Part shown: one piece after another, positions 7,883-25,727 of the stretch
How the letters are laid out: each line of letters starts with the position of its first letter
Numbering within the stretch: position 1 is the first letter of the stretch
Source: a bacterium
GTDB lineage: Bacteria; JAJVIF01; JAGGVT01
Length of the DNA: 25,727 bases
NCBI GenBank assembly: GCA_021157815.1
Contig: JAGGVT010000189.1
Span: 1 to 25,727 of the forward strand
Direction: 5' to 3'
Notes under the pieces: model-generated
The model's database searches: none
Told to the model about the DNA's origin: nothing
What the model saw: the letters and a program-made list of their open reading frames with translations, nothing else
Program-made: the position numbers and the translations under genes

Positions 7883-8304
7883 AGAACATAATAATGAATA
7901 TTCGTAAATAATTTAATAATTGCAGGGGCACAACATAGAATTTGCCTCAGAACCTTCAAACAGCACGAAAAACGTTATATCGAATTACGCGTTATGTAAA
8001 ATTACACGTCATTCCCGCGAACGGGGCTGTTGAAAAAGGGCTGAATGTAGGGGGTAGGTCTCTGTGCCTACCCTAAATATTGGCATAAATACAGGGCAAC
8101 CACAGAGAGTTGCCCCTACGGTCTGGGATATAATGGGCTTTTTCAACAGCCCCGTTCGCGGGAATGACAGAATGACGAACTTATATGTTCTGATGATGTT
8201 CTGAAACAGCCTCCACGTTGTGCCTCTACTTTGTATCCTACTTGCACCTTGCATCCCCACTTGATGCTGTAACCCCGTTATTTTCATGATATACTGCACT
8301 GCTG
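7883..8304. other. Gap of 422 bases occupied mainly by a MITE
   Basis: No gene is visible. Positions 8008-8168 are the complete MITE described separately. The rest is unstructured sequence leading to the secreted AMIN-like protein. A minus-strand open frame across this gap is just the translated MITE: the same peptide appears in the copy near 14830. Confidence 0.6.
8008..8168. mobile_element. MITE family 1, complete copy (161 bp, 31-bp perfect inverted termini)
   Basis: The termini 8008-8038 and 8138-8168 are perfect inverted copies of 31 bases. Each has an outer REP-like word GTCATTCCCGCGAAC and an inner GGGGCTGTTGAAAAAG. Inside are two hairpins, GGGTAGG/CCTACCC (8052-8058, 8067-8073) and GGGCAAC/GTTGCCC (8094-8100, 8109-8115), framed by GTAGGGG/CCCCTAC. 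No coding capacity is present, so it would have to be moved by a transposase encoded elsewhere. Related copies occur at 14831-14960 and 25601-25727, both in the opposite orientation to this one. Confidence 0.8.
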
Positions 8305-14747: not shown

Positions 14748-14830
14748 TTGTTTGTTGCCTCCTTCTTTTCCCCCCTTAATCCCCCGCGAGCAGGGGAAAC
14801 AATTATCAAATTTATGGTGCAGGCATCTTG

Positions 14831-14960
14831 GGCTTGTTGAAAAAACCCATTATATCCCAGACCGTAGGGGCAACTCTCCGTGGTTGCCCTGTATTTATGC
14901 CAATATTTAGGGTAGGCACAGAGACCTACCTCCTACATTCAGCCCTTTTTCAACAGCCCC
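14831..14960. mobile_element. MITE family 1, degenerate copy with possible target duplication
   Basis: This is inverted relative to the copy at 8008-8168 and shares nearly all of its interior (the GTAGGGGCAAC and GGGTAGGCAC hairpins). The ends are the inner terminus only, GGCTTGTTGAAAAA on the left and TTTTTCAACAGCCCC on the right; the outer GTCATTCCCGCGAA word is absent. ATCTTG occurs immediately on both sides (14825-14830 and 14961-14966), consistent with a six-base target duplication. It lies between the J-domain gene and the small cysteine-rich gene. Confidence 0.7.
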
Positions 14961-14994
14961 ATCTTGCCTGCACCACAACAACATCCTGTATATT

Positions 14995-15951
14995 CTATCT
15001 AATCACGCAGCATCCGCCGGGAATGCAGCATAAATCGCAAAGCATGGCGCAGCATAAGCAGTCTGTCATGCCGGGACAGCATCCGCATGAGAATCCGCGC
15101 CGCTGATAATACTGCTCGCGCATATTCTCCCTCATGTTCTGCTGGTTCATATACATACGCACCGATGGATGATCCGGATTAACTGACTGCGCATGATCCG
15201 CGACACTTCTTGCCCTGATATGCTGTCCGACCATATGCAGAGCGGATGCCAGCCCTATCAGATATTGCGGATTATCGACATCGAGATTAGTCGCTTTTTC
15301 AATATCACGAATCGCCAGACGCGGATTTCGCATCGAAACATAACAAGCGCCGCGATTGAAATGATAAACCGCGTTGTTCGGTTCAATTCGAATCGAGTTG
15401 CCAAGTGAATAGATCGCCCCGCGATAGTTTCCAGTCTCGATATATGCCATCGCCTTGAGGTTATGCGCGCCGGCATCATCGGGAGTCAGCCGTAGAATCT
15501 GGTCGAGTATATTTATCGACTGCGTATATTTCCTGCCGTTAAACAGATTCAGCGCCTTGTCGCGAAGGTCGCGCATTCTTGCCGGGTCAGCGCCGTAGTA
15601 TTCGCTCTGTTCGCCCCAGTCATCCGTATATGCGTAGCCAGTGTCAGCCTGATGATATTGTTTGTAATATGAATCCTGAGGCGGTTGATATGATGGTTGC
15701 GGCGGCGGTTGTGAAGGGGGAGGCGCTCCACGCATTCCGCCTGAATCATACTGGCGTCTGCTCGACGGGTCTTTTAAAGCCGAGTATGCCTCGTTTATCG
15801 ATTTCATCCGCTCCTCAGCCAGATGAGCCAGCGGATTGTCCATGTGGCGGTCTGGATGAAATTCCAGCGCGAGTTTCTTATACGCCGATTCAATCTCGCG
15901 TTGTGAGGCATTTCTGCCGACCCCAAGGATATCGTAATAATCCTCCGCCAC
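14995..15951 (-). CDS. J-domain / TPR protein with cysteine-rich C-terminal tail
   Basis: The 318-residue protein begins with a J-domain (YYDILGVGRNASQREIESAYKKLALEFHPD..., HPD at 32-34), which stimulates DnaK-type ATPases. A Pro/Gln/Tyr-rich linker (about 75-120) follows, then three to four TPR units (about 125-262) for protein binding. The tail has 11 cysteines in 27 residues (289-315), ending LCCIPGGCCVIR. It lacks the zinc-finger and C-terminal substrate domains of true DnaJ, so it is a specialised co-chaperone. It starts at GTG (15951), which overlaps the TAG of the upstream DUF5685 gene by one base, with AAGGAGG ten bases before, so translation is coupled. Client and chaperone partner are unknown. 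Confidence 0.9.
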   Translation of the reverse strand: MAEDYYDILGVGRNASQREIESAYKKLALEFHPDRHMDNPLAHLAEERMKSINEAYSALKDPSSRRQYDSGGMRGAPPPSQPPPQPSYQPPQDSYYKQYHQADTGYAYTDDWGEQSEYYGADPARMRDLRDKALNLFNGRKYTQSINILDQILRLTPDDAGAHNLKAMAYIETGNYRGAIYSLGNSIRIEPNNAVYHFNRGACYVSMRNPRLAIRDIEKATNLDVDNPQYLIGLASALHMVGQHIRARSVADHAQSVNPDHPSVRMYMNQQNMRENMREQYYQRRGFSCGCCPGMTDCLCCAMLCDLCCIPGGCCVIR

Positions 15952-18994: not shown

Positions 18995-19060
18995 GTAGGG
19001 GCGCCGCTTGCTGCGCCCCGAATTGACTATGTTTAATGCGGCACACCGGGGCACCCCTAC
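18995..19060. repeat. GTAGGGG...CCCCTAC palindromic element
   Basis: GTAGGGG (18995-19001) and CCCCTAC (19054-19060) frame inner GC-rich inverted words (GGGGCGCC with CGCCCC). The same frame words enclose the interior of the MITE family 1 copies, so the two share a building block. It separates hutU from the following lipoprotein gene. Confidence 0.55.
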
Positions 19061-19104
19061 ATATAATGGTTTATCTGCACAAATCATCGTATGGGAAAAC
19101 TAAA

Positions 19105-19497: not shown

Positions 19498-19518
19498 GGC
19501 TGTCATTCTGACGTATCT

Positions 19519-19593
19519 GTCATTCTGAACTTGATTCAGAATCCATTCTTTTTTTAGGTTGGGAGATGGATTCCGGGTCAAGCCCGGAATGAC
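19519..19593. repeat. REPIN-like two-hairpin repeat, copy 1
   Basis: This 75-base unit has a left hairpin ATTCTGAA-cttga-TTCAGAAT, a T-rich spacer with TTTAGGTTGGGAG, and a right hairpin ATTCCGGG-tcaag-CCCGGAAT. Ends are GTCATTC and GAATGAC, so the unit as a whole is also an inverted repeat. Confidence 0.85.
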
Positions 19594-19693
19594 ATATATT
19601 TACCCGGGATGATACTGATTTTACCCGGAATGACACTGATTTTACCCGGATGATACTGATTGACTAGGAATGACATTAATTAGATGAAGGGGT
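19594..19693. repeat. Short tandem units after copy 1
   Basis: Three units of about 20-21 bases of the form TTTACCCGGRATGAYACTGAT are followed by a TGACTAGGAATGACATTAAT tail that leads into the next repeat. Each unit repeats part of the right hairpin (CCCGGAATGACA). Confidence 0.75.
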
Positions 19694-19767
19694 GTCATTC
19701 TGAACTTGATTCAGAATCCATTTTTTTTTAGGTTGGGAGATGGATTCCGGGTCAAGCCCGGAATGAC
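19694..19767. repeat. REPIN-like two-hairpin repeat, copy 2
   Basis: This 74-base copy has both hairpins intact, differing from copy 1 mainly in T-tract length. Two tandem 21-base units and the TGACTAG tail follow up to 19847. Confidence 0.85.
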
Positions 19768-19847
19768 ATATATTTACCCGGGATGACACTGATTTTACCC
19801 GGGATGATACTGATTGACTAGTAATGACATTAATTAAATGAAAGGGT

Positions 19848-19923
19848 GTCATTCTGAACTTGATTCAGAATCCATTCTTTTTTTTAGGTTGGCAGATGGA
19901 TTCCGGGTCAAGCCCGGAATGAC
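19848..19923. repeat. REPIN-like two-hairpin repeat, copy 3
   Basis: This 76-base copy is immediately upstream of the nuclease segment. The flank then diverges into AT-rich sequence with two further GGAATGAC-like words before the GIY-YIG gene. Confidence 0.85.
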
Positions 19924-19980
19924 ATTAATATACACGGAGTGAAAATGTGAATGTACACGGAATGACAATGTGTGTCAGAC

Positions 19981-20010
19981 ATGACAAAACAGACGGAAAT
20001 CCATTATAAT
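19981..20010 (+). promoter_or_regulatory. Promoter of the GIY-YIG gene, possibly leaderless
   Basis: ATGACA (19981-19986) and a perfect TATAAT (20005-20010) are 18 bases apart. The start ATG is at 20019, so transcription would begin at or within a base or two of the start codon. No Shine-Dalgarno is visible. Confidence 0.5.
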
Positions 20011-20018
20011 TGACAGTT

Positions 20019-20306
20019 ATGAAAAACTATTGTGTATATATCCTTGCAAGCAAACCAAATGGAACTTTGTATATCGGTATGACATCAGATTTGGTGAGAA
20101 GAGTATATCAGCATAAGAAAAATCTGGCAGACGGATTTACGAAAAAATATAGCGTCCACCAATTAGTGTATTATGAAATTACAAATGATGTTGAAAGTGC
20201 ACTAACACGAGAAAAACAATTAAAGAACTGGAAAAGGCAGTGGAAGATTGAGTTGATTCAGAAAAACAATCCACAATGGAATGACTTATATGAGGATATC
20301 ATTTAG
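20019..20306 (+). CDS. Small GIY-YIG nuclease (COG2827/YhbQ-like)
   Basis: The 95-residue single-domain nuclease has an intact active site. The first motif is the VYIL segment with Tyr7, the second YIG (18-20), then Arg27 in DLVRRVYQHK, and the metal-binding glutamate Glu65 in ALTREKQLKNWKR. Enzymes with this fold make single-strand nicks using one metal ion; cellular roles of this short class are largely unknown. It is AT-richer than its neighbours and encoded inside the palindromic repeat array. Its stop codon TAG ends on the first base of a right-hairpin half-site (20306). The ATG at 20019 starts the canonical MKNYCVYIL; an upstream TTG three codons earlier is less likely. Confidence 0.88.
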   Translation: MKNYCVYILASKPNGTLYIGMTSDLVRRVYQHKKNLADGFTKKYSVHQLVYYEITNDVESALTREKQLKNWKRQWKIELIQKNNPQWNDLYEDII

Positions 20307-20330
20307 ATTCCGGGTCAAGCCCGGAATGAC
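20306..20330. repeat. REPIN-like half-site (right hairpin only)
   Basis: A solo right hairpin, ATTCCGGG-tcaag-CCCGGAATGAC, whose first base is the last base of the nuclease stop codon. The left hairpin is missing, as if the nuclease gene took its place. Confidence 0.8.
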
Positions 20331-20370
20331 ACTGATTTATGCAGAATGATGCTATTTTAGATGAAAGGGT

Positions 20371-20444
20371 GTCATTCTGAACTTGATTCAGAATCCATTT
20401 TTTTTTAGGTTGGGAGATGGATTCCGGGTCAAGCCCGGAATGAC
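20371..20444. repeat. REPIN-like two-hairpin repeat, copy 4
   Basis: This 74-base complete copy lies downstream of the nuclease, in the same orientation as copies 1-3. Confidence 0.85.
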
Positions 20445-20587
20445 ATATATTTACCCGGAATGACACTGATTTTACCCGGGATGATACTGATTTTACCCGG
20501 AATGACACTGATTTTACCCGGGATGATACTGATTTTACCCAGAATGGCACTGATTGACTAGGAATGACATTAATTAGATGAAATGGT
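20445..20587. repeat. Short tandem units after copy 4
   Basis: Five units of 21 bases (TTTACCCGG...ACTGAT) are followed by the same TGACTAG tail, compared with three units after copy 1 and two after copy 2, so the unit count varies between copies. Confidence 0.75.
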
Positions 20588-20615
20588 GTCATTCTGAACT
20601 TGATTCAGAATCCAT
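20588..20615. repeat. REPIN-like half-site (left hairpin only)
   Basis: A solo left hairpin, GTCATTCTGAACTTGATTCA and onward to CCAT, closes the array. Beyond it the sequence is unique. Confidence 0.8.
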
Positions 20616-25537: not shown

Positions 25538-25600
25538 GGCGAGATTATATCAACGAAATCCCCCACACCTGATTTTGCCATTCCAACGAAACAAGATTCC

Positions 25601-25727
25601 GTCATTCCCGCGAAAGCGGCTGTTGAAAAAGCCTATTATATCCCAGACCGTAGGGGCAACTCTCCGTGGTTGCCCTGTATTTATGCCAATATTTAGGGTA
25701 GGCACAGAGACCTACCCCCTACATTCA
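25601..25727. mobile_element. MITE family 1, copy cut by the right window edge
   Basis: This has the same orientation as the copy at 14831-14960 and begins with the outer GTCATTCCCGCGAAAG word, then GGCTGTTGAAAAAGCC and the conserved interior up to CCTACATTCA. The right terminus is outside the window. Confidence 0.75.

Follow-up and report, generated by a model that had tools for sequence, protein, structure and literature searches.

A gene for a small GIY-YIG nuclease lies intact within a cluster of short hairpin repeats in the bacterial DNA analyzed here, a stretch of 25,727 nucleotides (the window), and this raises the question of whether the nuclease and the repeats that surround it belong to one system. 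The repeats are of the CGTC-REP type, among the commonest short-repeat families of bacterial genomes and of previously unknown source. CGTC-REPs 'apparently lack a dedicated transposase' (Di Nocera, De Gregorio and Rocco 2013, PMC3733652) and are defined by a CGTC, TGTC or CCTC head, a stem of 8-9 bp that begins with AT, a loop of 4-5 nt and a CCA tail (PMC3733652). As the most plausible answer, to which we assign a probability of roughly three in four, the gene and its flanking hairpins form one small mobile unit, and the two-hairpin repeats are its internal-deletion derivatives, spread in trans.

On the forward strand of the window, the gene is surrounded by four left-right dimers, one solitary right half, and one solitary left half (Table 1). 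The preliminary description of this DNA had reported an array of this make-up, with four two-hairpin repeats and two half-sites in one orientation around an intact nuclease gene, and each of these elements is confirmed. The left half, TGTCATTCTGAACTTGATTCAGAATCC, and the right half, GGATTCCGGGTCAAGCCCGGAATGACA, each contain an 8-bp stem and a 5-nt loop and can be parsed as TGTC-ATTCCGGG-CTTGA-CCCGGAAT-CCA and TGTC-ATTCTGAA-CTTGA-TTCAGAAT-CCA, respectively. Their head, stem, loop, and tail, as well as the occurrence of dimers and heterodimers, match those of the CGTC-REPs, including neisserial dRS3 and rickettsial RPE-4 and RPE-6. Compared with shuffled sequence, a window dimer folds with a z-score of -4.8 and the two solitary halves with -3.3 and -4.9, and folding indicates that a four-way structure is possible for the dimer. 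The left partner of the gene itself is absent or degenerate in the window. Across the 3.2-Mb genome to which the window belongs, 114 right halves are detected at up to 3 mismatches, while a reversed control pattern gives 0; where a partner is found, the left half nearly always precedes the right, with starts 41-51 nt apart. Copy number is thus high and dimers prevail, as expected of CGTC-REPs.

Table 1 Features of the hairpin array around the GIY-YIG gene, in window coordinates
Feature	Position	Strand	Basis and remarks
CGTC-type REP dimer 1, complete	19518-19594	+	pattern match
21-bp tandem sub-repeat CCCGGAATGACACTGATTTTA, first array	19583..19675	+	grown out of the distal right half
CGTC-type REP dimer 2, complete	19693-19768	+	pattern match, fold
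21-bp tandem sub-repeat, second array	19757..19815	+	grown out of the distal right half
CGTC-type REP dimer 3, complete	19847-19924	+	pattern match
Possible degenerate left-half remnant	19975..20006	+	weak; only the 3' AATCCATT part matches; fold z -0.43, no stable hairpin
GIY-YIG nuclease gene, intact	20019..20306	+	ATG at 20019, stop at 20304-20306, 95 aa; in-frame TTG at 20010
Solitary right-half hairpin	20305-20331	+	adjoins the 3' end of the gene and shares its stop codon; 1 mismatch to the consensus
CGTC-type REP dimer 4, complete	20370-20445	+	pattern match
21-bp tandem sub-repeat, third array	20434..20569	+	grown out of the distal right half
Solitary left-half hairpin	20587-20613	+	pattern match, fold

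An Rfam scan of the window repeats gave no family above its gathering score, with only weak matches to WsnRNA46 and to microRNA models. Among the latter, mir-1954 reaches 41.8 bits on two dimers (19694-19767 and 20371-20444), below its cut-off of 99, and this model may itself be based on a bacterial repeat. Elsewhere in the window, a GTAG-type REP-like dimer of the RAYT-associated kind (GTAGGGGCGCCGCTTGCTGCGCCCC ... GGGGCACCCCTAC, 18995-19062) lies ~450 bp before the CGTC array. A dispersed repeat of ~131 bp, unrelated to the CGTC hairpins, is present at 8023-8173, 14830-14960, and 25596-25727 in copies that are 96-97% identical, and accounts for two spurious ORFs (8009-8299 and 14828-15106).

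The neighborhood of the gene was compared among the best 80 relatives of the window protein (51-75% identity, many phyla), picked by protein similarity alone and with one genome per species. Within 150 bp of these 80 genes, the 8-mer TGTCATTC/GAATGACA occurs at 4.39 per kb versus 0.06-0.08 per kb at 1-6 kb, an enrichment of ~62-fold relative to the 2-6 kb zone, and permuted 8-mers show no comparable rise beside the gene. The hairpins also keep a characteristic geometry, with the left half (TGTCAT..ATCC) ending mostly ~7-50 nt upstream of the start codon and the right half (GGAT..ATGACA) beginning mostly ~4-30 nt past the stop codon, each with its head pointing outward; the nearest upstream half-site is a left half at 36 loci versus a right half at 8, and the nearest downstream one is a right half at 39 versus a left half at 14. 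A motif-free comparison, in which the 160 bp upstream were locally aligned with the reverse complement of the 160 bp downstream, leads to the same picture. The preliminary description had proposed measuring how often hairpin repeats flank COG2827 GIY-YIG genes. In this comparison, 53 of the 80 loci reach a score of at least 16, compared with 1.5% of 476 control pairs farther out at the same loci. In a second sample, an independent draw of Gammaproteobacteria with 31 genes in 29 loci, a correctly oriented half-site lies within 150 bp of 21 of the 31 genes, with both halves at 15, versus 1 of 31 in a control zone at 600-750 bp, and the upstream half-site is a left half at 19 genes and a right half at 1.

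Membership of the nuclease family matters for this arrangement. Of 102 genes that score at least 130 bits against the family model, 86 are accompanied by a half-site on the side where it is expected, compared with 1 of 7 genes below 60 bits and 0 of 11 distant GIY-YIG paralogues in repeat-rich genomes. Under stricter tests, about one third of the close relatives show no recognizable hairpin, and both hairpins are recognized in only about half of the units. The association between the gene and the hairpins is real and widespread. Chance insertion of the nuclease gene into a repeat cluster, which the preliminary description had offered as its alternative, is overturned because of the ~60-fold enrichment across phyla, the fixed geometry, and the genome-level correlation in two independent groups described below. 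That description had also envisaged that the repeats might be equally common without the nuclease and the gene not enriched beside them; the outcome was the opposite.

A likely origin of the repeats is suggested by units in various stages of breakdown. In one gammaproteobacterium (G383), the full unit of 360 bp consists of the left hairpin, the gene, and the right hairpin, and is accompanied by shorter units with identical hairpins that measure 212, 170 (three), 169, 143 (three), 117, and 91 bp. The interiors of these short units match the 3' part of the gene at 87-95% identity, the 5' part being deleted, and the shortest, of 91 bp, has the form of a typical two-hairpin repeat with a piece of the gene as its spacer. 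Since 5'-deleted pieces of the gene lie between the same hairpins in these forms of 91-212 bp, such repeats are best read as deletion derivatives of the nuclease unit, and from these sequences we conclude that CGTC-type repeats are, at least in part, of this origin. Further intermediates include a truncated unit of ~375 bp at three sites in another genome (G227), in 99% identical copies with unrelated flanks; tandem units, part of them truncated, in G072 and G035; an upstream right half with an apparent 3' tail of the gene in Shinella HZN7; and a unit with an internal deletion retained in a repeat-rich genome that has no intact close relative of the gene (G459). The genome of the window contains three gene fragments, each adjoining a second hairpin type, CGTCATTCCCGCGAAAGCGGGAATCC, and one of them is an internal-deletion derivative. 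The spacers of the window repeats themselves show no clear gene remnant, because they are too short and T-rich. A further repeat of this genome, GGGCTGTTGAAAAAGGG ... GTTGCCCCTACGG (L003 1627-1760, L004 1201-1470), lies within or next to CGTC hairpins on either side of defunct GIY-YIG fragments. As in the MITEs of insertion sequences, non-autonomous copies here keep the ends of the full unit and have lost its interior; in contrast to MITEs, the ends are single hairpins and the presumed enzyme is neither a DDE nor an HUH transposase. If the repeats are deletion derivatives spread in trans, their relation to the GIY-YIG gene is therefore equivalent to that of REPINs to RAYTs.

The two ends of a unit are matched to each other. 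Among 52 two-ended units, the inner stems of the left and right hairpins of one unit agree at 5.48 of 7 positions, versus 3.89+-0.18 when right halves are shuffled. Different units of one genome can differ in their stems; stems of CCCGGCC-, CCGGGCC-, CGCCCGC-, and GGCCGGG-type occur among the units of an alphaproteobacterium (G053), each with its own partner, and a flavobacterium (G097) contains a CTGCGCAGGCAG unit as well as a CGCACTTGATGCG unit, with repeats of both types elsewhere in its genome. Stem similarity also follows nuclease similarity (Mantel rho 0.30, p 0.001, kinship ignored), a covariation that is suggestive only because shared descent is uncorrected.

Comparison of related strains suggests that the unit moves. 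On Sphingobium plasmids, several strains carry hairpin, gene, and hairpin in the fnrL-regulator interval; TomTYG64 and TomTYG74 have a single hairpin there and lack the gene, and TomTYG72 has neither hairpin nor gene. At the purQ locus, Sinorhizobium K101 has an insertion of ~0.84 kb that comprises the gene and flanking repeats, and S. meliloti Ak57 has one hairpin without this insertion; the K101 insertion is 93.5% identical to the hflX-mazG copy of the same strain, i.e., it is a duplicated copy together with its whole flanking repeats. Presence-absence polymorphism and a new insertion are thus both seen, and some of the gene-less sites keep a single hairpin. No target-site duplication could be defined at the sites compared, and a search for empty sites among Rhizobium tumorigenes-type plasmids, on which the gene has no adjacent hairpins, yielded no informative site. 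At one locus in Flavobacteriaceae, the gene occupies the same place across species, and therefore it can also be inherited vertically, as RAYTs often are.

The single hairpin at the gene-less sites in TomTYG64 and TomTYG74 and at purQ in S. meliloti would also fit a different history, in which the GIY-YIG gene parasitizes, in the manner of a homing gene, repeats that pre-exist and are made otherwise; the nuclease would cut between two hairpins and have its own gene copied in. GIY-YIG homing endonucleases are well known, and the persistence of repeats in genomes without a close homologue of the gene points the same way. We nonetheless regard a homing parasite as unlikely, since the repeats that hold 5'-deleted gene pieces derive from the unit and do not predate it, repeat number rises with the gene, and the stems covary with the nuclease by the Mantel test, in which kinship is ignored. 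The GIY-YIG homing endonucleases of the I-TevI type share with the present family the nuclease fold and the selfish spread of a small gene, but differ in that here no intron or intein is involved and a free-standing gene between hairpins is accompanied by multi-copy gene-less derivatives. Passive carriage of the unit by RecA-dependent recombination or gene conversion between repeats, with the nuclease serving another role such as cruciform repair, appears improbable. Arrays and tandem copies (L166, L208, L102), flanking repeats long enough for recombination, and the duplicated Sinorhizobium copy with its whole flanking repeats speak in favor of such recombination, yet it leaves unexplained the strong conservation of the active site in a selfish-looking unit, the association across phyla, the matched left and right stems of each unit, and the dispersed copies with unrelated flanks in G227.

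At the level of whole genomes, we related the number of repeats to the GIY-YIG gene and to Y1_Tnp genes in 423 genomes (149 Flavobacteriaceae and 274 Gammaproteobacteria), with kinship ignored throughout. In the Flavobacteriaceae, repeat count correlates with gene copies (rho 0.51, p 2e-11, kinship ignored) and shows no correlation with Y1_Tnp genes (rho 0.03). In the Gammaproteobacteria, the median number of repeats is 8 with the gene and 0 without it; at least 4 repeats are present in 38 of 60 genomes with the gene versus 35 of 214 without (odds ratio 8.8, p 6e-12, kinship ignored), and the association of repeats with Y1_Tnp is weak (odds ratio 1.8, p 0.058, kinship ignored). Over these 423 genomes, repeat number tracks the GIY-YIG gene better than it tracks Y1/RAYT transposases. 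Sixteen repeat-rich gammaproteobacteria have no close homologue of the gene: the family is absent from 5, distant paralogues that lack hairpins are its only members in 10, and 1 has a broken unit. Repeats therefore persist without an intact helper, which could be due to loss of the helper, to an incomplete assembly, or to another helper.

The preliminary description had remarked that no RAYT-type gene is visible; this is correct for the window and does not extend to the genome, which has 9 Y1_Tnp genes. Half-sites lie near 1 of the 8 Y1_Tnp loci fetched from this genome. One RAYT-like gene (L299) has inverted hairpins of another type on its flanks, GTAACCCGGGGACG / GTAACCCGGGGACGCTTCCCCGGG, and therefore two REP-type systems seem to coexist in this genome. 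A gammaproteobacterial genome of 1.5 Mb (G254) combines 415 hairpin-pattern matches with one GIY-YIG gene and no Y1_Tnp match, which makes it a good model for the GIY-YIG/hairpin system. That RAYT/Y1 transposases mobilize the repeats and the GIY-YIG gene is incidental is extremely improbable, despite the nine Y1_Tnp genes and the weak gammaproteobacterial association, in view of the absent correlation in Flavobacteriaceae, the scarcity of half-sites at the Y1 loci, the different hairpin of the RAYT-like gene, the repeat-rich G254 and G383 (93 repeats) without any Y1_Tnp match, and the finding that no tyrosine transposase gene is flanked by CGTC repeats (Di Nocera et al. 2013, PMC3733652).

How a mobile unit made of gene and hairpins could work is suggested by the protein. 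The window protein scores 64.6 bits against the Pfam GIY-YIG model PF01541 (cut-off 22.6), and its active-site residues Y7, Y18, R28, H32, and E65, kept in 99-100% of 152 aligned relatives, are the counterparts of the SLX1 catalytic residues, as expected of a member of the GIY-YIG superfamily. Among solved structures, the closest in sequence are the UPF0213 protein 1zg2 and SLX1; the viral contigs searched contain no relatives. SLX1 and UPF0213/YhbQ-type proteins have a corresponding nuclease domain in which Y, Y, R, H, and E match, and distant GIY-YIG paralogues, in the same and other genomes, have no flanking hairpins. SLX1 cleaves branched DNA and Holliday junctions (PMC8287910).

In the proposed unit of ~0.36-0.45 kb, which consists of a left hairpin (YGTCAT-stem-ATCCA), the GIY-YIG gene, and a right hairpin (TGGAT-stem-ATGACR), the two hairpins would serve as inverted ends. 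At replication forks, they would extrude as cruciforms or as single-stranded stem-loops, and the SLX1-related nuclease would recognize its cognate stem and nick or cut there. Repair would then copy the unit, or short derivatives of it, into other sites and into existing hairpins, thereby building arrays like that of the window. We infer this nicking and moving of hairpins by the nuclease from the activity of SLX1 on branched DNA and Holliday junctions and from the ability of the dimer to adopt a four-way structure. If the protein does cut these hairpins, it would be a very small structure- or stem-specific nuclease.

The proposed system parallels REPIN/RAYT, the combination of GTAG-REPs with an HUH tyrosine transposase (TnpAREP). 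Both combine abundant short hairpin dimers with a small helper gene that lies between hairpins of the same kind, here in left-gene-right geometry, and in both the helper is often single-copy and sometimes vertically kept. They differ in that the RAYT helper is an HUH Y1 transposase and the candidate here is a GIY-YIG protein, an unrelated enzyme, from which the tyrosine-DNA intermediate of HUH enzymes is not expected; in addition, the foot of the window hairpins is TGTC/CGTC instead of GTAG. Whereas CGTC-REPs as published have no dedicated transposase, a GIY-YIG gene is bracketed by them here, and its deletion derivatives appear to be such repeats. These comparisons make the GIY-YIG nuclease the strongest candidate for the helper that CGTC-REPs have lacked, and the open-access literature contains no report that links GIY-YIG proteins to these repeats. 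The suggestion of the preliminary description that the nuclease may act on these hairpins as a second type of REP-helper system is thereby supported. We lean, by a narrow balance, toward a broader reading, namely that the CGTC-REPs of many phyla, dRS3 among them, stem from an unrecognized class of prokaryotic transposable elements that end in hairpins and use a free-standing GIY-YIG nuclease as their recombinase; this class would constitute a second REP-helper system, which evolved separately from RAYTs. A helper candidate of ~95 amino acids makes the question of the missing CGTC-REP enzyme directly testable. Such a helper would account for heterodimers and arrays as decayed units, and would suggest at least two origins, within bacteria, of hairpin replicators tamed by a small nuclease.

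The repeat dRS3 is present in about 700 copies per meningococcal genome. A gonococcal relative of the window protein (60% identity) is encoded inside a dRS3 array, with 16 repeats within ~1.6 kb; one dRS3 starts a few bases past the stop codon, and the canonical left-gene-right order is absent. Neisserial CGTC-1 corresponds to dRS3 according to Di Nocera et al. 2013 (PMC3733652). Hairpin repeats were also observed near two further relatives. On a Planktothrix agardhii plasmid (L229), a GIY-YIG relative at 2501-2785 has an MmeI-type restriction enzyme on one side and DISARM drmA on the other and is surrounded by repeats of another hairpin type, TGTCATTCTGAGTGAAACGAAGAATC. In Photobacterium sp. 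GJ3 (L235), a long array of CGTCATTCCCGCGCAGGCGGGAATC-type hairpins extends downstream of the GIY-YIG gene, starting about 0.3 kb past it.
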